Source of the DNA: Gracilinema caldarium DSM 7334
GTDB lineage: Bacteria; Spirochaetota; Spirochaetia; Treponematales; Breznakiellaceae
Assembly: GCF_000219725.1 (NCBI RefSeq)
Contig: NC_015732.1
Location: 1,550,001 to 1,614,000 of the forward strand
Direction of reading: 5' to 3'
Length of the DNA stretch: 64,000 bases
Shown here piece after piece: positions 2,521-52,276 of this stretch. Under the pieces are notes generated by a model. It was not told the DNA's origin. It ran no database searches and saw only the letters and a program-made list of their open reading frames with translations. Numbering within the stretch: the stretch's first letter is position 1; every line of letters starts with the position of its first letter. A program made the translations under genes and the position numbers.

Positions 2521-3174
2521 ATGAATAGACCATTGATAGCACCATCAATTCTATCTGCTAATTTTTCGAAACTGGGTGAAGCTGTCTCTGCAATTCAGGA
2601 TGCAGGAGCTGATTGGGTACATATTGATGTCATGGATGGTATTTTTGTGCCTAATCTAACCTTTGGACCAAAAATGGTGAGCGATTTACGCCCCTATACA
2701 TCGTTACCCTTCGATGTTCACCTGATGATTGAGAAACCGGATCAGCTCATTCCTGCCTTTGCTGAAGCCGGGGCAGATTATATTACCTTTCACCTCGAAG
2801 CAGTCGTGCATGCCCATCGCACGATACAAATGATTCGCAGTTTAGGTAAAAAACCCGGTGTCAGTATTGTTCCCTCAACGCCGGTCAGTATGCTGAAAGA
2901 ATTGCTGCCCTATGTGGATCAAGTCCTCATTATGACCGTTAATCCCGGTTTTGGGGGTCAAAGTCTCATAGAAACCTGTTTAGATAAAATACGGGAACTG
3001 GTAGCCATGCGAAATGATCAACAATTGCCATTTCTAATCTCAGCTGATGGTGGTATTAATGAACAAACTGCAGCTATAACACGAAAGGCTGGAGCTGATA
3101 TATTGATAACAGGTTCAGCATTCTTTTCAGCTCAGGAAAAGAAAAAAATGGTTCAATCATTAAGGAAATTTTAA
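2521..3174 (+). CDS. rpe: Ribulose-phosphate 3-epimerase
   Basis: A 217-residue TIM-barrel enzyme that interconverts D-ribulose 5-phosphate and D-xylulose 5-phosphate in the non-oxidative pentose phosphate pathway. Family motifs are all present: APSILSANF at residues 7-15, VHIDVMDG with H34 and D36, DVHLMI with H67, the phosphate loop NPGFGGQ at 141-147, and the second catalytic aspartate D176 in SADGGI. These His and Asp residues are the usual metal ligands. Length is normal for the family. There is no ribosome binding site; the promoter places +1 three bases before the ATG, so translation is likely leaderless. It is followed by a 167-base gap and may be transcribed alone. Confidence 0.97.
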   Translation: MNRPLIAPSILSANFSKLGEAVSAIQDAGADWVHIDVMDGIFVPNLTFGPKMVSDLRPYTSLPFDVHLMIEKPDQLIPAFAEAGADYITFHLEAVVHAHRTIQMIRSLGKKPGVSIVPSTPVSMLKELLPYVDQVLIMTVNPGFGGQSLIETCLDKIRELVAMRNDQQLPFLISADGGINEQTAAITRKAGADILITGSAFFSAQEKKKMVQSLRKF

Positions 3175-3298
3175 CAATTTAAAGGGCCCCCTTAAAATAT
3201 AACCGAGTTTTTAAAAGCGCCCTCAAATTTATATAAGATTCTAATGCTAGGGTTTTTCTTGATTTTAAAAGATGAATTGCCGAAATTTATAAAAGGGA

Positions 3299-3333
3299 AC
3301 CTCTATAGTTTTTGAGGTACCTCTTGCAAGGAG
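3299..3333 (+). promoter_or_regulatory. Possible switching leader hairpins before the TPR secreted-protein gene
   Basis: Two copies of ACCTC (3299-3303 and 3319-3323) flank one GAGGT (3314-3318), so GAGGT can pair with either copy. The bases just after the second copy (3321-3325) can pair with the Shine-Dalgarno AGGAG (3329-3333). The rest of the 3175-3341 gap holds an AT-rich stretch and one short imperfect inverted repeat around 3178-3198 but nothing else I can name. Confidence 0.3.
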
Positions 3334-3341
3334 TACCATCG

Positions 3342-4343
3342 ATGGTTTTAAAACGTACATCCTTTTTTATAGTCCTAGTAATGTTCCTTTGTAATTTGTT
3401 ATTTGCACAAAACCCAAAGGAATTATTTGAGAAGGGCCTTGATTTATATCAAAATGGAAAATGGCAGGATGCGGTGCTTATGTTCCGTCGCGTACAAACA
3501 GACACCACCGTAGATGAAACGCTAACAAATGAAGCCCTTTATTGGATTTCTTTATCTGAACTTTTTGCTGGTGCATATGAAGCAGCATTACAGGATATAG
3601 AACTTTTTATAAAGAATACATCAAATACACCATCGAAGGTAAAAAACTATTATGAAGCTATCTATAATAAAGGACGTATTCTCTATTATTTAAATCAATT
3701 TGATGGAGCAATTCCATTATTTAAAACCTATGCTGATGCAATTCAGGATCCAAACCGGAAAGCATCTGCCTATTATTGGATAGGTGAGTGTCTTTTTGCC
3801 TTAGGTCATTTTGAAGAAGCTCGAAATACATTTTTAATTGTTACAGAAAAATATCCGCAAAGTACTAAGTATGAAGCTGCTAGTTATAGAATTGTTCTGG
3901 TAGATCAGAAAAAAATTGAGAATGAATTGCTTAATCTCTTGAAATGGAGTCATGAAGAATCTTTGAGGATTGTAGAAGAGTATCAACGTAGAGAACGTGC
4001 CTATGAACAAGCAATTTTAGCCTATCAGAAACGTATTGCGGAAATGTTAAAAGACACTCATATGGCAGAACTAGAAAAAGAAAACAAAGAGCTAAAACAA
4101 AAGCTTGCTCTGCTCGAATCTAGTCTAACTACTATAGCTGCATCAGCTCCGCTTAAGGATGTTTCAGTCGTGCAGGATCAGATGTCGGAACAGTCAACAG
4201 AGATAACCAAAGCTATGGTCTCTGGGACATTAACTCAGGAACAAGCAAACAAATTATTATCTCTTAAAGCTTCAGCTCTGGAATTACAGAAAATGCTGCT
4301 CAAGCGTCTTAGCGAAAGCACAGAACAGGGAGACAAAAAGTGA
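3342..4343 (+). CDS. Secreted TPR protein, YbgF/BamD-like
   Basis: Starting at the ATG at 3342, which has AAGGAG eight bases upstream, the protein is 333 residues. In-frame upstream TTG codons lack a ribosome site. It begins with a signal peptide (basic MVLKRTS, then a hydrophobic run ending LFAQ), then TPR repeats over about residues 25-180, including a pair like those of YbgF/BamD-type envelope proteins. A long charged coiled coil follows (about 195-260), then a Thr/Ser/Gln-rich tail. It is probably periplasmic or attached to the outer membrane. The stop codon overlaps the next start in TGATG, so the two are translationally coupled. The exact function is unknown. Confidence 0.75.
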   Translation: MVLKRTSFFIVLVMFLCNLLFAQNPKELFEKGLDLYQNGKWQDAVLMFRRVQTDTTVDETLTNEALYWISLSELFAGAYEAALQDIELFIKNTSNTPSKVKNYYEAIYNKGRILYYLNQFDGAIPLFKTYADAIQDPNRKASAYYWIGECLFALGHFEEARNTFLIVTEKYPQSTKYEAASYRIVLVDQKKIENELLNLLKWSHEESLRIVEEYQRRERAYEQAILAYQKRIAEMLKDTHMAELEKENKELKQKLALLESSLTTIAASAPLKDVSVVQDQMSEQSTEITKAMVSGTLTQEQANKLLSLKASALELQKMLLKRLSESTEQGDKK

Positions 4344-5377
4344 TGAAAAAGAATCTTATTTTTATCGGTTTTATCCTTGCAATAGTGCAGGGGCTTCCAT
4401 GGTTAAGTGCCGCAGAATTCTCAGATGGTCGAATGAAACTAGTCCTGCATGAAAATACCGGCAGATTTTCCCTTTATTATCTGACAGACATAAAAAAGGA
4501 ACGATATCAGAGCCTGTTTGTTGACAAGGATCCACGGACATCTTTTCTAAGCATTTTAGTGAATGATAAATCATATCGACTTGGTGATAGTACGGCTTTT
4601 CGTATAAAAGTTCAGAATGAAAACTCAAAACCTGCAATTATTTTTCAAGCTTCCACGATTGAAGTGGTACAAGAGTTTGAATTTATTCGTACCGGTGGTG
4701 CCACTCTATCGAATGGGGTAAAAATGAATATACGGGTTACTAATAAGGGAGAAAAGGCTATTCCGATTGGTATTCGTTTTGTTCTGGATACTTCACTTGG
4801 TGAGAATGCACAAAATCATTTTTATACAGATTTACAACAGATTCCAGCTGAATTAGCTCTGACTTCAAAAGATCGGGATACATATTGGATTTCTAAAAAT
4901 GATAGTCTTGGATTAATGGGATCGATTAATATTGCAGGGACTTCGCAGCCTGATCTGATCCATTTTGCTAATTGGAAACGATTTAATGATGCAAGCTGGC
5001 AAATAACATCAAGTAATGGACGAAATTTTAATCTACTTCCTTATTCTATTGGTGATTCAGCTGTGGCTTATTATTATGATCCTGTCCTCATTCCAAGAGG
5101 ATCTGTTCGAAATGTTGCAATCTTACTGACCCTAGCATCTGATAAGGGTTTTGAAACGGTTGGAAAAAGCATAGAAGGTGATATCTCTCAGTTATTAGGA
5201 ACCGCACGTGGAACTAGCACCGAGGAATTATCGTTTAGAACAGATCTCATCATGATTGGAGATGTAGTAAATAAAATTGACAGTATTCTTGCTGCTCAGC
5301 AAGCGGTTTCAGAGGAAGAGTTGGCTGCATTGGAAACAATCTTGTCCAAACTGCAAGAAAAATATACATCACGGTAA
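4343..5377 (+). CDS. Conserved periplasmic protein of unknown function
   Basis: The preferred start is the ATG at 4343, overlapping the preceding stop, giving 344 residues; a GTG one codon upstream is also possible. It has a clear signal peptide (MKKNLIFIGFILAIV, cleavage after the alanine of LSAAEF). The mature part looks beta-rich with no cysteines or motifs I recognise, and a helical region at the C-terminus rich in Ala and Glu. Coupling to the TPR secreted protein upstream and the TPR membrane protein downstream suggests the three act together at the envelope. No enzymatic residues are evident, so I leave the function open. Confidence 0.7.
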   Translation: MKKNLIFIGFILAIVQGLPWLSAAEFSDGRMKLVLHENTGRFSLYYLTDIKKERYQSLFVDKDPRTSFLSILVNDKSYRLGDSTAFRIKVQNENSKPAIIFQASTIEVVQEFEFIRTGGATLSNGVKMNIRVTNKGEKAIPIGIRFVLDTSLGENAQNHFYTDLQQIPAELALTSKDRDTYWISKNDSLGLMGSINIAGTSQPDLIHFANWKRFNDASWQITSSNGRNFNLLPYSIGDSAVAYYYDPVLIPRGSVRNVAILLTLASDKGFETVGKSIEGDISQLLGTARGTSTEELSFRTDLIMIGDVVNKIDSILAAQQAVSEEELAALETILSKLQEKYTSR

Positions 5378-5386
5378 TGATAGAGG

Positions 5387-6541
5387 ATGAAGCTGGATCC
5401 GCTCTTAACCAAGGCTGCCCAATATGCACGAAGGGGTCATTATAGCAAAGCAATTCGACTTCTTGAGCCAGAAGTGCTCCGATATCATGATTCTCATCGG
5501 TTTTACTATATTCTCGCTGTATCCTGTTTGAATTTAGGAGATTTTGGAGGAGCCCATACTTATTTTCGTCGATGCCGGGAACTAAAAATACAGGATTCTT
5601 ACACCCTACTGGGATTAGCAGCACTCCATGTCCGGCGTGGTGAGACAGATCGGGCTGTTGAATATTATCTTGAGATTTTGGATCTCGAAGCAGCCAGCCC
5701 CAATCCCTCGAAAAATGCCATTCGAATAGCCAAACGAGGTCTGGCAGTTATTCGAAAATTTGGGGAAAAGGAAACCCTATCAACATGGCTTGAAACAGGG
5801 GCATTAAAACACATATATCCCCCGCTGCCACCGCTTCCTCGCCGTCTTCGTACGGTATTTTCCGCTGCCCTGGTAACAGGGCTAGCTCTTATTGCGATGG
5901 CGGGGATAGGTATTTATACTAAAAGCATACCCAATCCCTTTGAAATAGCCCCAAGACCGATCCGGCCAGGTATGGAAAGTCTTATCCTCGATGATACAGA
6001 GCGGAAAACTACCGTCAACACTTCGGGGGCTTTTCGATATGTACTTACCCAGGATCAGGTTTTACAAAGCTACGAGCGTGCTAAAAGGTTTTTTGCAGAG
6101 TTCAGAGATGAGGCTGCGAAAATTGAAATTAACCGTATCCTTGAATCCAATGCATCCGATACAATAAAGGCAAAGGCAAACCTGTTGCTTTCCTACACGG
6201 TAACACCGGGCTTTAACACCCTGAAAGACACCTATTCCTATCTGGATGTACAAAAAGATCCCTACTTATATCGGAACGTTGTCGTTCGCTGGAAAGGCAT
6301 GGCCGCAAATGTTCAGCTACATGATCGGTCTGTAATGTTTGACTTGCTCGTAGGCTATGATATGAAAAAAGTCCTCCAGGGCATCGTCCCTGTAGTACTT
6401 CCCTTTGCCGCAACCATTAATCAGAATGAGCCCATAGAAGTCCTTGGTTCCATTACTGTACAGAAAGAAGGATCTATTGCCCTACGGGGCATTGCAATAC
6501 ATCAGGCAGTTTCCCTGCCGCAACCAGAGGAACAGCAATGA
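5387..6541 (+). CDS. TPR protein with one transmembrane segment
   Basis: A 384-residue protein. Residues 1-120 contain about three TPR repeats, beginning [20 protein letters not shown] single hydrophobic membrane segment lies at about 160-177 ([20 protein letters not shown]), putting the TPR part in the cytoplasm and the C-terminal 200 residues outside. The C-terminal domain (about 205-380) is mixed alpha/beta and not recognised. The ATG at 5387 follows the previous stop by nine bases with AGAGGATGA upstream. Its last four bases overlap the start of dtd in ATGA. It closes a three-gene envelope unit. Confidence 0.7.
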
Positions 6542-8212: not shown

Positions 8213-9508
8213 GTGGCAAAGGTAACAGAAACTTCCGGAGCAAATCAGGAACAACGGGCTAGTAACGAAGAAAAATTAAAAGCCCTGGAAATAGCCCGTC
8301 TGCAGATTGAAAAACAGTTTGGTGCGGGATCTCTCATGAAACTGGGAACCCATGTCAATGCGGCTGGAATAGAGGTTATTCCTAGCGGCTCTATCTTGCT
8401 TGATGAAGCTCTCGGTATAGGGGGGTACCCCCGGGGGAGAATCATAGAAATATATGGGCCCGAATCATCCGGTAAAACTACCCTGGCCTTGCACGCCATT
8501 GCAGAAGCACAAAAACGGGGCGGTATTGCCGCCTTTATTGATGCCGAACATGCCCTTGACCCGGTGTATGCAAAAAATTTAGGTGTTAATATTGATGAAC
8601 TCTGGGTTTCCCAGCCCGACACGGGCGAACAAGCCCTGGAAATTGCCGAAAGCCTTGTCCGTTCCGGCGCAGTAGATGTCATTGTTGTAGACTCCGTAGC
8701 CGCCCTGACCCCTCAAGCAGAAATAGAAGGCGAAATGGGAGACGCCCATGTAGGGCTCCAGGCCCGGCTCATGAGTCAGGCTCTGCGAAAACTGACCGCC
8801 ACGATCGGTAAATCTCGAACGATCTTAATTTTCATCAACCAGATCCGTATGAAAATTGGTGTTATGTTTGGGAACCCGGAAACCACCACCGGCGGAAACG
8901 CCCTAAAATTTTATGCCTCGGTGCGGCTTGAGGTCCGTAAAATGGAAACCATCGAGAAGGGTGAGGCTGACGCGGTTGGAAACAAGGTCCGGGTTAAGGT
9001 GGTGAAAAATAAGGTTGCGCCACCCTTCAGAAAGGCTGAGCTGGACATTATGTTTGGTAAGGGCGTTTCCGCCATCAGCAGTATCCTGGATGCGGCGGTG
9101 AAGTACGAAATTATTGATAAAAAAGGCGCCTGGTATGCCTATGGCGAAGAAAAAATCGGCCAAGGCAGGGATAATGCCCGGGAATTTCTGGAAAACAACC
9201 CTGTATTAGCCCAGGAAATTGAGAAAAAGCTCCGCTCTATTATGTTTCCTGGTATGAAAGAACCGGAGCAAGTTCAGCCTGCAGCTAATCTATCCGGTAC
9301 TGGTCTGGGATCGGGGGTCTCCATGCCAGCAGGCTTAAACCAGGGGGCAAAAACCTCCGCAGCAGAAGTGAAAGGGGCAGAATTAAAAGGAGGAAGTGGG
9401 CAAACTCCTGGGGTTAAAGCTGCCGCTGTAACCAGCCCCTCTCGACCAAGTGCGCCAAAGCCTGCTCAGGTAAAACCGACGCTCTCAGAAGATGACGAAC
9501 TCTTCTAA
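8213..9508 (+). CDS. recA: Recombinase RecA
   Basis: A 431-residue RecA, the ATP-dependent strand-exchange protein of homologous recombination and the co-factor of damage-induced mutagenesis. The start is GTG at 8213, six bases after GGGAGG. Walker A GPESSGKT is at residues 82-89; the DNA-binding loops ([16 protein letters not shown]) and the core are well conserved. The protein is about 80 residues longer than typical because of a low-complexity Gly/Ala/Ser/Pro/Lys C-terminal tail (from about 365), which still ends in the acidic SEDDELF. The acidic end is a known modulator of RecA activity in other species. The 3' end overlaps folK by 17 bases. Confidence 0.98.
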
Positions 9509-34867: not shown

Positions 34868-37800
34868 TCATCGCTTGCGTAATTTGAGCGTTCCTTTATT
34901 AGTTGTCATGTTTCCAAGCACATCCCGAACCTGTACAATATACGAATATTCCGTATTCACTTCAATTAATTTGTTGTCCAGGTTATAGCCATCCCATAAA
35001 ATGGGTTCCTGCGGAAGTTTCTTTCCAGAGAAGCTTGTGAATAGTTTCCCCTGTGAGTCCAGGATACTGAGTTTCCATCCATTAATATCGCTGGGGTCAG
35101 AAGCAGAAAGAGTTATAGCCAGAAGGTCATCTTTTCCGTCATTATCAGGGGAAAATGACTGAGGTAAAAAACTCACCGTAACAACCGGCGGGGTTCTGTC
35201 TAAACGGATAGCGTTTCCCTCTACGGAAATACGATCACCCTTTGTGTATTCAATCTGCACCCAGGGAATATATTCTCCATCGGGGGCTATCACATTAGGC
35301 TTGTCAGATGAGCCATCCCATTGAAACTGTGAACTCTGTTCGAGATGAGAGCCCTCCGCAAGATGACGAATAGACTTACCATGGCGATCCCGAATTTCAA
35401 GTCTAAACCGTTTTATTCCATCCGTAAAGGATACAACGAGGCGGAAGGTAATGAGATCGGCAAATCCATCCTGATTTGGCGAAAAGGCCTGCAGGTTACT
35501 GGTAAGGATTGCTGAAGGATTCCGGGCATCAAGAATAACCTGATTTGAAGAAACTATAGTCCGATTCCTCGCCAGATCAAAACCTTCTATTACAAAGCGA
35601 TAGGTCCCATCAGAGACGATACTATGGCCATCATCCCGGCCATCCCAGATAAGACTGTTTGGCGGATTGCCCTTCCAGATAAAACTCCGTACGATCTTGC
35701 CTTCTGTATTAACAATTGTACCAACCCATTGTACTGCATCTTCTGCCTGAATGAGAAATCTTATGGTGTCCTGTATTCCGTCACCGTTCGGTGAAAATAT
35801 ATGTGTTTCTTCAGAAACCTTCACCTGTGGGGGTGTAGAATCCAGCTTTATGGGCTGGCTTTCTACAATACGGACTTTTCCGTTCGCCATATTCAGTCTC
35901 AGCACAGCGTGATAAACTCCATCGGAACAGAGCATACCCTGTGCATCTCTTCCATCCCACATAAATGGGGCCGGAAGAATTCCTGAGAATTCTTTAACCA
36001 CAATGCCGCTCTGCATGTTCCGGATGCTCATCTGATAGGAACTAATAGAACCATTATCCTGAATATAGGGCGTAAAAACGACCCGCTCCTCTCCTGACCG
36101 TCCAGAAAAAATTTCAGCACTCGATTGCAATACAATAGCTCCTTGCTGTATGGGTTCTACCATAATGCTAATTGGTAATGTACGGCCGGTAAGTCCAACC
36201 GCATTCACCCCTTCTGCAAAATAGAAATAGGTTCCCTCTGGTACAGGCTCTCCGAAATCTGTTTCTCCATACCATCGAATAATCGCTTCGGTGTTTCGTC
36301 CAAGGGGGATTTTTTTAAGGACCTTCTGCTGAGCGTCAGTAATGAAACCGGTCCATTCTGCATCGGCCGAAAGGTCATGGTACAAGAAGAGCCCTTCGGG
36401 ATTTACTCTCGATATAGTTGTGCGGGAACTCCGTACATGCCCTGATGGTTTATGGGATTGTACAGTAAAGAAAGGACTATATTGTATAAGAGTGTCCCCA
36501 TTGGCATAGATCATTGTAATAACAAACCGATAGGAACCATCGGGTATGGGGTCTTGAGTATCGGTAAGTCCATTAAATCGTAAAGATTGAGGGAACTGAT
36601 CTAAATTATCCCGATTACCCTGCCAGGTCCGATAGGACATTCCTTGTACATCGGCAACCAAGATAGTCCATTCGAGAAGGCCTTTATCGATGTAATCGGA
36701 AAACAACACCTGGAGGTTTGCAAAGAGGGATCCAGGCTCAGTGGACATGGCCGAATGGGAAAGGGTAACCTTGAGACGTCGTGGTTCTTTATCAACAATA
36801 ATGGGGCCAGTGACCGTCGAAAAGGTATTGCCAGCTTTGTCAGTAGAACTCAGCGTATAAGTATAGCTGCCGTCATCAACCACATTACCCTCAGCATCAC
36901 GGCCGTCCCAGACAAAATCCGGTGGAGCTAGCTCTTTCCAAGTAAAACTGCGGACTACTTTACCATGCTGGTTCTGGAGCGTACCTGTCCAAAAACTCTC
37001 TTTGGTACCATTTTGAAGCATGTGTAAAAGATCCCGGACGCCATCACCGTTGGGACTAAAGATAACAAGACCATCGTTATTTTCTGATGGAATACGAACG
37101 AATCCAGAAGGCGGAGTACTATCTATACTGAAAGAGAAATGGGTGGTATTTTTATTTCCATGAGTATCCTGAGCTGAAATGAATAATTGATACTCCCCAT
37201 CTGACCAGGTCTCATCCAAAGGTATCGCAAGGGGTATCTTGAGGTGTTTTAGAACACGAGGATTTGTGTTTGACTGATGAAATTTAATGCCCCCCTGTTC
37301 ATCTTGGATAAGCACATCCCAAGTCTGAATAGGACTATCGTCTGTAAGATTCATTTCTATATTGATGATTCGTGGGGTTTTCGCTGAATAAACCGATTCT
37401 AAGGGCTGTAATAACTCAATAACAGGCTTCTGATGGTCTACTTCACTATTGGTTAAGGTTACCGCAGTTTCAATACCAGTTCCCTGTGACCAAACAGGAT
37501 AAACTCTGAATCGAGGTATCAGACCGAGCGGTCCCATTTTTAGAGAGGCACTGCTATTAATAGTAAAAGAGATCGTAGGGAACCAAGCATTATTATCAGG
37601 ATGAATAAGAGATTCGTTCCACCCAATGGAAATAGTCACTACCTTTCTCACTTTTAAAGAAGCGGAACCTTGTATCCACAGATCTTGAAAGGCAGGGATG
37701 GCTATCTGTATTCCCGCTGATAATTCCACCGGATCTTGCAGTATAAGAGAGTTCCAACCCGATACGAATGTATAGGGGTATGGGCTTTCTGGTCCATTTC

Positions 37801-47098: not shown

Positions 47099-47129
47099 GA
47101 TCCTGGCTTAAAAGCCAGGGTCTTTTTTT
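47099..47129 (+). terminator. Terminator after the HEAT-repeat gene
   Basis: An 11-bp stem with one G-T pair (arms 47099-47109 and 47112-47122, tip frayed to a small loop) followed by seven T residues. It isolates the mutasome cassette from upstream transcription. Confidence 0.9.
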
Positions 47130-47133
47130 ACTC

Positions 47134-47162
47134 TTGATAACTACACAGATGTTAAGTATAAT
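47134..47162 (+). promoter_or_regulatory. Promoter of the DUF72-ImuB-DnaE2 cassette, leaderless
   Basis: TTGATA (47134-47139), 17-base spacer, perfect TATAAT (47157-47162). Position +1 falls exactly on the A of the ATG at 47169. No Shine-Dalgarno and no obvious LexA-type palindrome is visible. Confidence 0.75.
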
Positions 47163-47168
47163 AATGGT

Positions 47169-47972
47169 ATGGGTATCGTACTGACAGGGACATCGGGCTA
47201 TTCCTACCATGAATGGGTGGGCCCGGTATATCCTGAAGGCATACAAACACATGAATACCTCTCCTATTACAGCACCCTCTTTTCTGCGGTGGAGCTCAAT
47301 TTTAGCTATTACCGGATGCCTGAGCGGGAGCAGATGAACCGCATACTGGAAGAAAGCCAGAACCGGCTTATTTTTTCGGTAAAGGCCCATGAAAGTCTGA
47401 CCCACAGGGCAGACCCTCTCGCATGGGAGGAAGAAGCGGTCCGATTTTGTAAAGCCCTGGAGCCCCTGGCGGCGGATGGAAAGCTCGGGACCCTGCTTCT
47501 CCAGTTTCCCTTTTCTTTTCATTATGAGGCAGATCAGCGCCGGTATCTGGATAGACTCCTAAAAACCCTGAAGGATTTCCCGGTAGCCGTAGAGTTTCGA
47601 AACAGTCAATGGTTTAACAACAGGGTTATCGAGGGTTTCCGCCAACGGAGTATCTGTCTTGTATCCCTGGACATGCCATCCTTGAAAGGGTTACCTCCTC
47701 TCATGGATGTGGTCACCGCCCCCTTTGCCTATCTCAGGCTACATGGTCGCAACGGTGAAACCTGGTGGGGTTCCGATGGGGCCGAGCGCTATAATTATTT
47801 GTATAACGATCAAGAACTTCAGTCCTTTGTGGATCGCATCAGACTTTTACTGACCCATGCAGAACGGGTATTTGTTTTTTTTAATAACCATCGGCGAGGT
47901 CAGGCGGTACAAAATGGGCAAAGCCTGGTGTCCCTACTCAAAAAGGCAGGTCTGCCATGCGGTACGGTATAA
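47169..47972 (+). CDS. DUF72 (YecE-like) protein, first gene of the mutagenesis cassette
   Basis: A 267-residue DUF72 protein, a TIM-barrel family of unknown function. The opening GTSGYSYHEWVGPVYPEG, VELNFSYYRMP, LLLQFPFSFH, AVEFRNSQWF, YLRLHGR and VFFNNHRRGQAVQNG segments are all typical. The gene starts exactly at the predicted +1 of its promoter. Its last 16 bases overlap the ImuB gene, so its product is made together with ImuB and DnaE2. In the usual imuA-imuB-dnaE2 cassette the first gene encodes the RecA-like ImuA; here DUF72 takes that place. Whether it acts in DNA repair is inference. Confidence 0.92.
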   Translation: MGIVLTGTSGYSYHEWVGPVYPEGIQTHEYLSYYSTLFSAVELNFSYYRMPEREQMNRILEESQNRLIFSVKAHESLTHRADPLAWEEEAVRFCKALEPLAADGKLGTLLLQFPFSFHYEADQRRYLDRLLKTLKDFPVAVEFRNSQWFNNRVIEGFRQRSICLVSLDMPSLKGLPPLMDVVTAPFAYLRLHGRNGETWWGSDGAERYNYLYNDQELQSFVDRIRLLLTHAERVFVFFNNHRRGQAVQNGQSLVSLLKKAGLPCGTV

Positions 47973-49201
47973 AACGGCAAGAAAGTGCCATTGTACACAT
48001 CAATGTTACCGGCTTTGCTTCCTCGGTGGCTATAGCTCGGGACCGTTCCCTGCGGGAGCAGGTATTTGTAGTGGCCGAACCTCGGGCCGGCAGGGCTGTT
48101 CTGCTGGATGTGTCCCCCCGGGCACTGGAAGAAGGTTTGGTACCGGGGATGGCCCTTTCAGAGGCAGTGCAAAGGCTGCGGAATTTGCAGATCCTGGCCC
48201 CTGATTCCAGGGCTATGAAACGGGCCAGCGAAACATTGGTCGCCGCAGTCAAACCCTTTGCACCGCTGGTAGAACAGGTCCCGGGGGGACACCTGTACCT
48301 CGATCTTTCTGGCACGGCCCGCCTTTTCGGCCCCCCTGCGGATACGGCCATCAGGATCCGACGGAACATTATCGAGACCCTCAATCTGGATCCGGCCCTG
48401 GCGGTGGCCCCCAACAAACTGACCGCCAAGGTGGCAACCCGCACCTTGCGTCCTGCCGGTTTTGCGGCAATCCGTGCTGATGAGGCGGCGGCGTTCCTAT
48501 CATGCCAAGATATAGGGCTGCTCCCCGGTATCGGGCCGGCTCTGCTTAAGTTGCTCCACACCGCGGAAATTTACACAATCGGCGATCTTGCAGAACTATC
48601 GGATCATGAAGCCAGGATACTTCTGGGAAAGTACTCTACCAAATTGTTACAGTATGCCCGGGGGCTTGATACAGAACCGGTCTTTGATTCCGCCCACAGC
48701 AGGCCAATCATAGAACGGGAACTTCAGTTTCAGGGAGCTATTTCTGAGCGGGAGGTTCTGAGGGGGGGCCTGATGGCTTTGGTAGAAGAAGCCGGTATGG
48801 CGCTGCGTCAACAGCGGCTGGCAGCTCAATCACTGGATCTCATCCTGCGTTATGCTGACGGGGTTGAGCGCTGTGCCAAAAAACGTTTTTGTATGCCCCT
48901 CAGCATGGATCAGGCACTTTTTTATGAGGCAGAAGCATGCCTTAATACGGTTCTGGATCGAAGGGTACGAATCGGTATGATCGGCATCAAACTTAAAGAC
49001 CTGGAACGGGATTATGGTGAACAGGACCTGTTTATTCCGGAAACCGACCGGTTCAGCCAGGGGCTTCAAACTGCGCTTGATCAAAACCGTCAGCGTTTTG
49101 GCATGAGTTCCATCGTTCGGGGAACTGCCCTTCTCGCTCAAAGCTATGCTGGCTCTGTAACCTGCAACCACAATATAACTGCTCAGGCGGCACTGATATG
49201 A
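47957..49201 (+). CDS. imuB: ImuB-like inactive Y-family polymerase
   Basis: A 414-residue Y-family protein with palm/finger region (about 10-240), thumb helix-hairpin-helix (LLPGIGPALLKLL near 183-195) and little-finger region (about 250-350). The catalytic carboxylates are lost: the first motif reads HINVTGF with N16 for Asp, and the SxDE motif is replaced by PGGH (109-112) before LYLD. This is the known signature of ImuB, an adaptor rather than an enzyme. A clamp-binding-like EQDLF is at 355-359, in the position usual for ImuB/DinB proteins. It overlaps DUF72 by 16 bases and DnaE2 in ATGA. Confidence 0.88.
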   Translation: MRYGIKRQESAIVHINVTGFASSVAIARDRSLREQVFVVAEPRAGRAVLLDVSPRALEEGLVPGMALSEAVQRLRNLQILAPDSRAMKRASETLVAAVKPFAPLVEQVPGGHLYLDLSGTARLFGPPADTAIRIRRNIIETLNLDPALAVAPNKLTAKVATRTLRPAGFAAIRADEAAAFLSCQDIGLLPGIGPALLKLLHTAEIYTIGDLAELSDHEARILLGKYSTKLLQYARGLDTEPVFDSAHSRPIIERELQFQGAISEREVLRGGLMALVEEAGMALRQQRLAAQSLDLILRYADGVERCAKKRFCMPLSMDQALFYEAEACLNTVLDRRVRIGMIGIKLKDLERDYGEQDLFIPETDRFSQGLQTALDQNRQRFGMSSIVRGTALLAQSYAGSVTCNHNITAQAALI

Positions 49202-52200
49202 ACCTGCGGCTTGGCATTCAGACAGCCTACTCGCTTTTGTACGGCACCCACCGGCCCGAGGTTATGGTGGAGCGGGCTGCTCATTACGGTATCGAGACCC
49301 TGGCTATCATCGACCGGAATAACCTCTATGGACTCCATGAATTTCTAGAAGCCTGTAAAGATCGGAATGTACGGCCCATAATCGGCTGTGAACTAACCAG
49401 TTCTGCCGGTTCGGTAACCGCCTTTGTTATGGACAAGCGCGGATTTTCCCGGCTCTGTGAAATTCTGACAGCCCTGGCATCCTATCGTGCAACAGGATCA
49501 GAAGTTACCCCGGATTTCTTGGGCTCCCTGCTTACCACAGATGCAGTGAGGGACTCTCAGAGCGGGAATCCGGGCCTTGCCCTTGCAAGCGCTGACCCCT
49601 TTTGGCTCGAACATCTAAGGGGCAAGGTCCCCCTGCTCTACGCGGCCTGTGGTCCTGGTAATCTATCTGCCATAACCTATGCACGGCGCCATAAAATTCC
49701 GCTTCTGGCACTCCAGCATAATTGTTTTCTTGAATCTCAAGACTATCCAGTCCATCGGGTGCTTCGGGCTATCGGGACCAATAAAACCCTGGGAACGCTG
49801 GCCCCTGAAGATTATATCGATGAAAATCAACTATCCCATCATATATTGATGGATGAACGGGCATACCGCAGCTTTTACCGGTCCTGGCCTGAGGCTCATA
49901 GAGCTGCTGAAAAGCTGGTTCAGCAGGTCAGCTGTACCGATCCTTTCGACGGTTATATTTTCCCGGTCTATGAAACCCAAAACAGAAAGCATCCCGAAGA
50001 TCTGCTGCGACAACTGGTTATTACAGGGGCGGAACAGCGGTATGGGGAACTTTCCGATGCCATACTCGAACGTATAGACTATGAACTCGACATCATCAAT
50101 AAAAAAGGATTTTCATCCTATTTTCTTTTCATGCATGACATTGTTAGTCTTGCGAACCGCATCTGCGGTAGAGGCTCAGGGGCAGCATCCATTGTGTCCT
50201 ACAGCCTGGGTATTACCAATGTAGATCCTATAGCCCATCGTCTTTATTTTGAGAGGTTTTTAAATTTATCCCGACTGGATCCTCCCGATATTGATGTGGA
50301 TTTTCCCTGGGATGAACGGGACGCATTAATACAACAGGTTATTGCAAAATTTGGACGGGACTATTGTGCCCGGGTAGCCAACCATAACCGATTCCGCTTT
50401 CGTTCTGCTCTCCGAGAAACCGCCAAAGTGTACGGATATTCGGAGATAGAAATTTCCACACTGGAACGGCAGCTGCAAAAGGCCGACCTCCAGCTAGATG
50501 AATTAACAAAAACCAAAGGCACCGAGTGGACCCAGGTTGTCCACATGGCCCAACGGCTCGAAGGTCTACCCAGGGGACTTTCCATGCACTGCGGAGGACT
50601 TGTCATTACGCCCGAACCAATCTGCCACTATGCACCCATAGAGGTCTCATCGGGGGGCTTTCCCCTCCTCACCTGGGAAAAGGAGGGGACTGAAGCGGCA
50701 GGACTGGTAAAACTGGACCTTTTAGGCAACAGATCCCTGTCGGTGATCCGAGATGCCTTGGAAAATCTTAAAAATGATGGAATTTTTATAGATTTTCTGC
50801 GGACGGACCCCACCCAAGATCAGGCTACAATAGAGACCCTTGCCCGGGGCGATACGTTAGGAGTTTTTTACATTGAATCTCCTGCCATGCGCCAGTTACA
50901 GAAAAAGACCAGCCGGGGAGACTTTGATCATATCGTCATTCACAGTTCTATCATACGCCCTGCGGCCAATCGTTTTATCGAAGAATATGTACGACGACTT
51001 AAGGGCGGTACCTACCAAAGCCTACATCCCAGACTGGAAACCATTCTGGCAGAGACCTACGGTATCATGTGCTACCAGGAAGACGTATCCAAAGTAGCGG
51101 TAGCCCTGGCTTCGTTCAGCGAGTCCGATGCAGATACTTTACGAAAAATCATTGCAAAAAAAGCCGGAGGAAAAAAGCTGGCGGCTTTTAAAGAAGCGTT
51201 TTATAAAGGATGTCTGCAGAATCAGGTTCCCCAGACCATCATCGATGAGGTATGGGCCATGATGCTTTCCTTTGACGGTTATTCTTTTAATAAGCCCCAT
51301 TCAGCATCCTATGCGATGGTTTCCTTTCAATCAGCTTATCTCAGGGTTCATTATCCTGCGTATTTTATGGCTGCAGTCCTGTCCAATCAGGGAGGATACT
51401 ACCATCCTCTAGCTTATGTAAGCGAATGTCGCAGGATGGGGTTACGGGTACTAGGGCCGGACATCAATATGAGCCGCTACCACTACTACGGCAGAGGAAA
51501 TGATGTAGTAGTCGGTCTTATAGCTATCGGGGGGCTTGGGAAAAGTACTACCGAGCAACTTGTGGCGGAACGGGAACAACGGGGCCCTTTTCAATCGTTA
51601 CAGGATGTTGCGAAAAGACTTCGAATTCCCAGGGATGAACTTGCGGCCATGACGAGGGCCGGCCTCTTTGATAGTATTACAACATTGAACAGGGCTCTGC
51701 AGTTTCGCATGTTTCTTACTGAACAAAACAATAAAAATGAGCAGGAGCTTTTTACATTCCCTCAGTCAGCCCCCAAAAAAACAACTGAAAAACTAGAAAC
51801 CCGTATCAAGGAATTCAAGACCCTTGGATTTCTTCGTTCTGGGCACCCCCTGGAACTCTGGACTCCCCACCGGGCGCTCAAGGGTAGAGAGCGCATTTTT
51901 GCATCGGATCTCTCAAATTATATTGGACTCCGGGTACGGCTTCTAGGCTGGCCTATTACCAGAAAGGATGTCTGGACACTACATGGCGAAACCATGACCT
52001 TTATCAGCTACGAAGATGAAACAGCCCTTTATGAAACCGTTCTGTTTCCTCCGGTTTATCAGAAATACCGCTCACTCCTTTTTGATATTCAACCCTTTTT
52101 ATTAACAGGGCTTGTAACTCAGCAGCAGGGAGCGATTAGCCTTGAACTGGAACATCTAGAAAAAATACAGCCAAAAACAACCAAAGAGGGTTTGCAATCA

Positions 52201-52233
52201 ATAAAAGAGTCTGCAAAAAAATATTATTGTTAG
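49198..52233 (+). CDS. dnaE2: Error-prone DNA polymerase III alpha, DnaE2/ImuC type
   Basis: A 1011-residue C-family polymerase, shorter than replicative DnaE, in the DnaE2/ImuC size range. The PHP domain (about 1-210) has lost its metal ligands: the usual HxH reads GIQ near residue 7 and the DH motif reads DRNN, so no proofreading activity is expected. The polymerase site is intact: PDIDVDF (363-369) with two Asp and KLDLLG with D507; RICGRGSGAASIVSY binds nucleotide. A helix-hairpin-helix follows, then EQELF at 848-852 as the likely clamp motif, and an OB fold (about 905-990). As ImuB is inactive, this would be the translesion polymerase of the cassette. Confidence 0.92.
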   Translation: MNLRLGIQTAYSLLYGTHRPEVMVERAAHYGIETLAIIDRNNLYGLHEFLEACKDRNVRPIIGCELTSSAGSVTAFVMDKRGFSRLCEILTALASYRATGSEVTPDFLGSLLTTDAVRDSQSGNPGLALASADPFWLEHLRGKVPLLYAACGPGNLSAITYARRHKIPLLALQHNCFLESQDYPVHRVLRAIGTNKTLGTLAPEDYIDENQLSHHILMDERAYRSFYRSWPEAHRAAEKLVQQVSCTDPFDGYIFPVYETQNRKHPEDLLRQLVITGAEQRYGELSDAILERIDYELDIINKKGFSSYFLFMHDIVSLANRICGRGSGAASIVSYSLGITNVDPIAHRLYFERFLNLSRLDPPDIDVDFPWDERDALIQQVIAKFGRDYCARVANHNRFRFRSALRETAKVYGYSEIEISTLERQLQKADLQLDELTKTKGTEWTQVVHMAQRLEGLPRGLSMHCGGLVITPEPICHYAPIEVSSGGFPLLTWEKEGTEAAGLVKLDLLGNRSLSVIRDALENLKNDGIFIDFLRTDPTQDQATIETLARGDTLGVFYIESPAMRQLQKKTSRGDFDHIVIHSSIIRPAANRFIEEYVRRLKGGTYQSLHPRLETILAETYGIMCYQEDVSKVAVALASFSESDADTLRKIIAKKAGGKKLAAFKEAFYKGCLQNQVPQTIIDEVWAMMLSFDGYSFNKPHSASYAMVSFQSAYLRVHYPAYFMAAVLSNQGGYYHPLAYVSECRRMGLRVLGPDINMSRYHYYGRGNDVVVGLIAIGGLGKSTTEQLVAEREQRGPFQSLQDVAKRLRIPRDELAAMTRAGLFDSITTLNRALQFRMFLTEQNNKNEQELFTFPQSAPKKTTEKLETRIKEFKTLGFLRSGHPLELWTPHRALKGRERIFASDLSNYIGLRVRLLGWPITRKDVWTLHGETMTFISYEDETALYETVLFPPVYQKYRSLLFDIQPFLLTGLVTQQQGAISLELEHLEKIQPKTTKEGLQSIKESAKKYYC

Positions 52234-52244
52234 CAGGGCCTTGA

Positions 52245-52276
52245 AGATGTCTCTCAATCAGAAGACATCTGTTTTT
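52245..52276 (+). terminator. Terminator after the mutagenesis cassette
   Basis: An 8-bp perfect stem (52245-52252 and 52263-52270) with a ten-base loop, followed by G and five T residues on the plus strand. It overlaps the 3' end of the convergent cyclase extension. Confidence 0.8.

Follow-up and report, generated by a model that had tools for sequence, protein, structure and literature searches.

The systems closest to the locus described here are two mutasomes. In the ImuA-ImuB-DnaE2 mutasome, a three-gene cassette of the SOS type supplies the polymerase DnaE2 together with a dead Y-family adaptor, ImuB, whose ImuB-C domain comprises about 80 residues (PMC3765255). The contact between the RecA-NT motif and ImuA' has experimental support in mycobacteria (PMC11791113). 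Systems that lack ImuA have also been described: the DnaE2B-iPolY-RecA putative mutasome (gbDinB2/scDinB2 type; Timinskas et al. 2026, PMC12926913; 2019, PMC6511836) combines DnaE2 with an inactive PolY that carries clamp and RecA-NT motifs, has neither ImuA nor ImuB-C, and is thought to use RecA through the RecA-NT motif. A more distant parallel is offered by the PolB2 operons, which encode a B-family polymerase, iRadA and PPB2; DUF72 genes are reported near polB2, where they are enriched only "to some degree", and lexA is enriched nearby in bacteria (PMC11791011).

The cassette considered here was found in the window, a stretch of 64,000 nucleotides of the genome of the thermophilic spirochaete Gracilinema caldarium DSM 7334. 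It resembles both mutasomes in its DnaE2 and its dead Y-family protein, and the PolB2 operons in placing a DUF72 gene next to a translesion polymerase. It differs from ImuA-ImuB-DnaE2 in that DUF72 stands in place of ImuA and the Y-family protein (iPolY) lacks ImuB-C, and from DnaE2B-iPolY-RecA in its constant first-gene DUF72, its spirochaete-wide spread and its conserved operator. What seems to be new is DUF72 as a constant member; the ImuA-less DnaE2-iPolY-RecA type is already known. As the original prediction had supposed, this composition does not seem to have been described: the open-licence literature, supplements aside, yielded no paper in which DUF72 is named alongside ImuB or DnaE2 (the sole match concerns DUF721), and the main text of the 2026 survey (PMC12926913) mentions neither DUF72 nor spirochaetes.

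Organization of the locus

The three genes overlap by 16 and 4 nt, all on the + strand, behind one promoter. The features are as follows, with recA, which lies outside the cassette:

8213..9508, + strand: recA, predicted partner of the RecA-NT motif (genome search)
47099..47122, + strand: intrinsic terminator of the upstream gene (10-bp stem, -17.4 kcal/mol, z -5.7, T run)
47134..47162, + strand: sigma-70 promoter TTGATA-17-TATAAT (11/12 match)
47140..47157, no strand: operator ACTACACAGATGTTAAGT, read as a putative LexA/SOS box, filling the promoter spacer
47169..47972, + strand: DUF72 TIM-barrel protein, 267 aa (Pfam, predicted structure with pLDDT 93, TM1631 fold)
47957..49201, + strand: iPolY, inactive Y-family polymerase, ImuB-like without ImuB-C, 414 aa (Pfam, alignment, predicted fold)
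49022..49033, + strand: beta-clamp motif QDLF of iPolY, residues 356-359 (alignment)
49058..49141, + strand: RecA-NT-like motif of iPolY, about residues 368-395 (hhalign)
49198..52233, + strand: DnaE2 error-prone polymerase, 1011 aa (Pfam; catalytic Asp kept, PHP histidines lost)
about 52245..52276, + strand: downstream intrinsic terminator hairpin (z -3.3)

The promoter is the top sigma-70 match of the region, in which sites of at least 9/12 occur at chance number (10 observed, 10.8 expected). Coordinates, promoter score and hairpin z-scores all agree with the arrangement originally proposed, namely three overlapping genes behind one strong promoter and between two terminators. The palindrome within the promoter, the clamp and RecA-NT motifs of iPolY and its missing ImuB-C are additions to that proposal.

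The inactive Y-family protein and DnaE2

iPolY matches the Pfam families IMS (E 1e-23) and IMS_C (E 3e-7), and its predicted fold is that of a Y-family polymerase. N16, G111 and H112 indeed occupy the positions of the D, D and E of Pol IV, as first read from the window, and these positions are lost in every aligned cassette, the first Asp being replaced by N and the Asp-Glu pair by G-H/N. The DLF of the clamp motif is invariant in 17 aligned cassettes, with variants such as ELF, DIF and PLF in some others. Downstream of it, a profile of the iPolY tail aligned with the RecA N-termini of the same genomes with an hhalign score of 21.9 (E 1.7e-4), and none of 100 column shuffles scored above 14.2; the pairwise match is weak, with z 2.0 for the iPolY of the window and most single sequences undecided. 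Since only about 20 residues follow this motif, the 414-residue protein has no ImuB-C domain. What the original prediction called ImuB is an iPolY without ImuB-C and not a true ImuB. With iPolY as query, no second Y-family protein was found in the G. caldarium genome.

DnaE2 matches the Pfam palm, fingers and PHP families with E-values down to 1e-66. It retains D364, D366 and D507, while the PHP histidines are lost (HxH is replaced by IQT and TDH by IDR), so that the three polymerase Asp residues and the missing PHP ligands of the first description both stand. Among the compared genomes, cassette-type copies score at least 1041 bits with the DnaE2 profile and DnaE1 at most 592 bits.

A search for imuA elsewhere, which had been suggested as a check, found none in the 31 cassette genomes (at most one match below the cut-off per genome), with a model that stayed below its cut-off in every control genome, that of Caulobacter among them. 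The sole weak match of the G. caldarium genome is recA itself. LexA (C1:2923143) and RecA are both present in this genome. Because the dead polymerase lacks ImuB-C and bears beta-clamp and RecA-NT motifs, RecA itself probably acts in ImuA's place.

Distribution of the cassette

An initial search of 59 relatives gave 15 loci with close iPolY homologues, and DUF72 adjoins iPolY in all but one of them. The survey was extended to 393 genomes drawn evenly from the spirochaetes and searched with an iPolY profile; the scan of genome contigs used a six-sequence subset of the iPolY alignment. Scores above 340 bits were obtained at 28 places, in 26 genomes and seven families, the next score being 234 bits. 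A DUF72 gene lies directly upstream on the same strand at all 28, and DnaE2 directly follows iPolY in the spirochaete cassettes, save at contig ends and in one genome (G225) where it is on another contig. In G034, iPolY and DUF72 are convergent neighbours, as read across two contig ends. Given these last two cases, strict co-transcription is not universal.

Outside the phylum, plasmid NZ_AP021877.1 of Desulfosarcina ovata carries lexA-DUF72-iPolY-DnaE2 in one direction, a copy headed by lexA in the manner of an ImuA-ImuB-DnaE2 cassette; its DUF72, iPolY and DnaE2 score 267, 273 and 1165 bits with the spirochaete-cassette profiles. The DUF72 linkage on which the original prediction depended thus recurs across the surveyed phylum and on this plasmid. 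The cassette is real and conserved, not a local accident.

In two Myxococcota/Deltaproteobacteria bins (L078, L079), iPolY, DUF72 and DnaE2, the latter two of the cassette type, each lie on a contig of their own. Their iPolY genes have no adjoining DUF72 or DnaE2, and in L079 the gene is immediately preceded by a weaker palindrome (11.7).

The DUF72 protein

DUF72 is a very widespread family that includes proteins of solved structure; to our knowledge, no function has been assigned to it. For one member, TM1631, a function has been predicted only, as endonuclease IV-like DNA binding (PMC3828134). The protein of the window matches PF01904 with E 9e-64 (215.9 bits, for a cut-off of 25.3), and its predicted structure (pLDDT 93) matches TM1631 (1VPQ) with a TM score of 0.85 and 35% identity; the two share a fold. 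The next-nearest folds, with TM about 0.5, are sugar epimerases and the UV-damage endonuclease (UVDE). The protein is a TIM barrel, a fold unrelated to RecA. Its pocket residues E42, K72, E142, D168, H192 and N240 are kept in 32 to 36 of the 36 cassette copies, and likewise in unlinked ones. Four cassettes retain the gene although its pocket is eroded (genomes G046, G052, G050 and G389; loci L042, L043, L047 and L057).

Many DUF72 genes of the spirochaete survey are unlinked to the cassette. In a tree of the family the cassette copies cluster (6 label changes, compared with 25.9 after shuffling), two UmuC-linked copies fall in the neighbouring clade and most unlinked DUF72s lie outside; the support of the cassette cluster is 81 only, and the Desulfosarcina copy stands just outside it on a long branch. 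These data are compatible with a subgroup of DUF72 proteins that is dedicated to translesion synthesis, a single origin not being settled by them. The plasmid DUF72 neighbourhoods of Paraburkholderia, Rhodanobacter, Hymenobacter, Oceanithermus, Ensifer and Rhizobium contain no adjacent polymerase, which makes polymerase linkage a trait of one subgroup rather than of DUF72 proteins in general.

Other arrangements were observed. In G398 (L164), UmuC is directly followed by DUF72. At L077, a second, distant DUF72 gene (1637-2644, - strand) lies divergently right beside the cassette.

The operator palindrome

The palindrome ACTWWAC-N4-GTWWAGT is present in the promoter spacer of 30 of 33 cassettes, usually at a distance of 11 nt from the start of DUF72. 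Its scores there range from 16.4 to 28.3, compared with 12.1 for the top site in five shuffled sequences of 90 kb. With its own genus excluded from the matrix, the site at 47140-47157 still ranks first in the window (19.9, the next being 14.2). A second operator-like site, at 37759, is inside a gene for a protein of 1166 residues and is probably due to chance. Where DUF72 is unlinked, the palindrome was not found at the start of the gene (about 40 genes, all scores below 12). The three cassettes lacking it upstream come from two genomes, G031 and G257 (L040, L041, L050, L051), which have two cassettes each.

The palindrome also occurs away from the cassette. In G257 it precedes a DUF4130 gene and an integrase-family gene (L091, L082), candidate members of an SOS regulon. 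In one relative, G386 (L165), a UmuD-like peptidase, UmuC and DUF72 form one operon (2989-5411) with the same palindrome at 5419. A near-perfect copy (G000:C1:2132825-2132842, L087) lies between two CRISPR-array-like repeats, that is, in a spacer, and perhaps originates from an element with an SOS-type promoter.

Proposed mechanism and alternatives

Composition, linkage, the conserved box, inactivation, the motifs and the failure to find ImuA are established by the analysis, whereas the binding of LexA to the box, of iPolY to RecA and the clamp, the mutagenesis and, most of all, the role of DUF72 are inferred. The reading that we favour, with a probability of roughly 0.7, is a translesion (mutagenesis) cassette induced by the SOS response, which belongs to the ImuA-less DnaE2-iPolY-RecA type and has DUF72 as an additional, invariable member. 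LexA would occupy the box inside the promoter, and its inactivation upon damage would allow the three proteins to be made together. The dead Y-family protein would serve as a scaffold, docking on the beta clamp by its QDLF motif and binding RecA at the filament end by its RecA-NT motif, in the place of ImuA. DnaE2 would then perform error-prone synthesis, and DUF72, a TIM barrel distantly like UVDE and the sugar epimerases, may act at the stalled site by binding or processing the lesion or the DNA end. Since DUF72 also occurs with UmuD and UmuC in an operon behind the same box and is reported near polB2, it looks like a general translesion-synthesis partner. We tentatively suggest, at somewhat less than even odds, that it is an unrecognised subunit or cofactor of translesion synthesis at large (DnaE2-iPolY, Pol V/UmuDC, PolB2), and the fourth component of an ImuA-less, RecA-dependent mutasome.

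The role of DUF72 can be understood otherwise. It might be a co-regulated, stand-alone repair enzyme, a lesion nuclease or end-processing activity whose operon merely couples repair with bypass. The abundance of unlinked genes, the pocket residues kept equally in both settings, the nearness of the UVDE fold and the company of UmuC are all consistent with this. On the other side, the genes are tightly linked in a constant order and, in many cassettes, overlap slightly, which favours their stoichiometric co-production, and the four cassettes that retain the gene with an eroded pocket also argue against an independent enzyme; we regard this explanation as a serious one, with the odds against it. 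A quite improbable reading is that of the original prediction, in which DUF72 replaces ImuA on the dead polymerase. As a statement about gene order it holds, lexA-DUF72-iPolY-dnaE2 corresponding to lexA-imuA-imuB-dnaE2, and the failure to find ImuA in the cassette genomes accords with it. As a statement about structure and job it probably does not: ImuA, which RecA-NT holds, is homologous to RecA, the motif persists here in a genome that has RecA, the DUF72 fold is unrelated, and ImuA-less iPolY-DnaE2 systems without DUF72 have been reported (PMC6511836, PMC12926913).

The regulator raises a similar question. The AC-N4-GT core of the palindrome fits the pattern of LexA boxes. In five genomes, belonging to three genera, the same palindrome is found in front of lexA (scores of 13.4-18.3, those of shuffles reaching 12.1 at most), in addition to its positions ahead of the umuDC-like operon and the DUF4130 and integrase genes. 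Another damage or stress regulator, with the cassette outside LexA control, would be compatible with the lack of any box seen at the lexA promoter in most cassette genomes, G. caldarium DSM 7334 included, and with the different boxes described for LexA in Leptospira, TTTGN5CAAA (PMC3789691); we consider it unlikely. Judged from the sequence and its positions, the palindrome is probably a LexA/SOS box, which would place the cassette under SOS control.

Significance

An SOS-type box is proposed here for a large part of the spirochaetes. The sole Y-family protein found in the G. caldarium genome is suggested to be a non-catalytic scaffold. For DUF72, the constant company of an error-prone polymerase and a dead adaptor in one operon, behind a shared damage-type box, points to a concrete and testable role in damage-induced mutagenesis.
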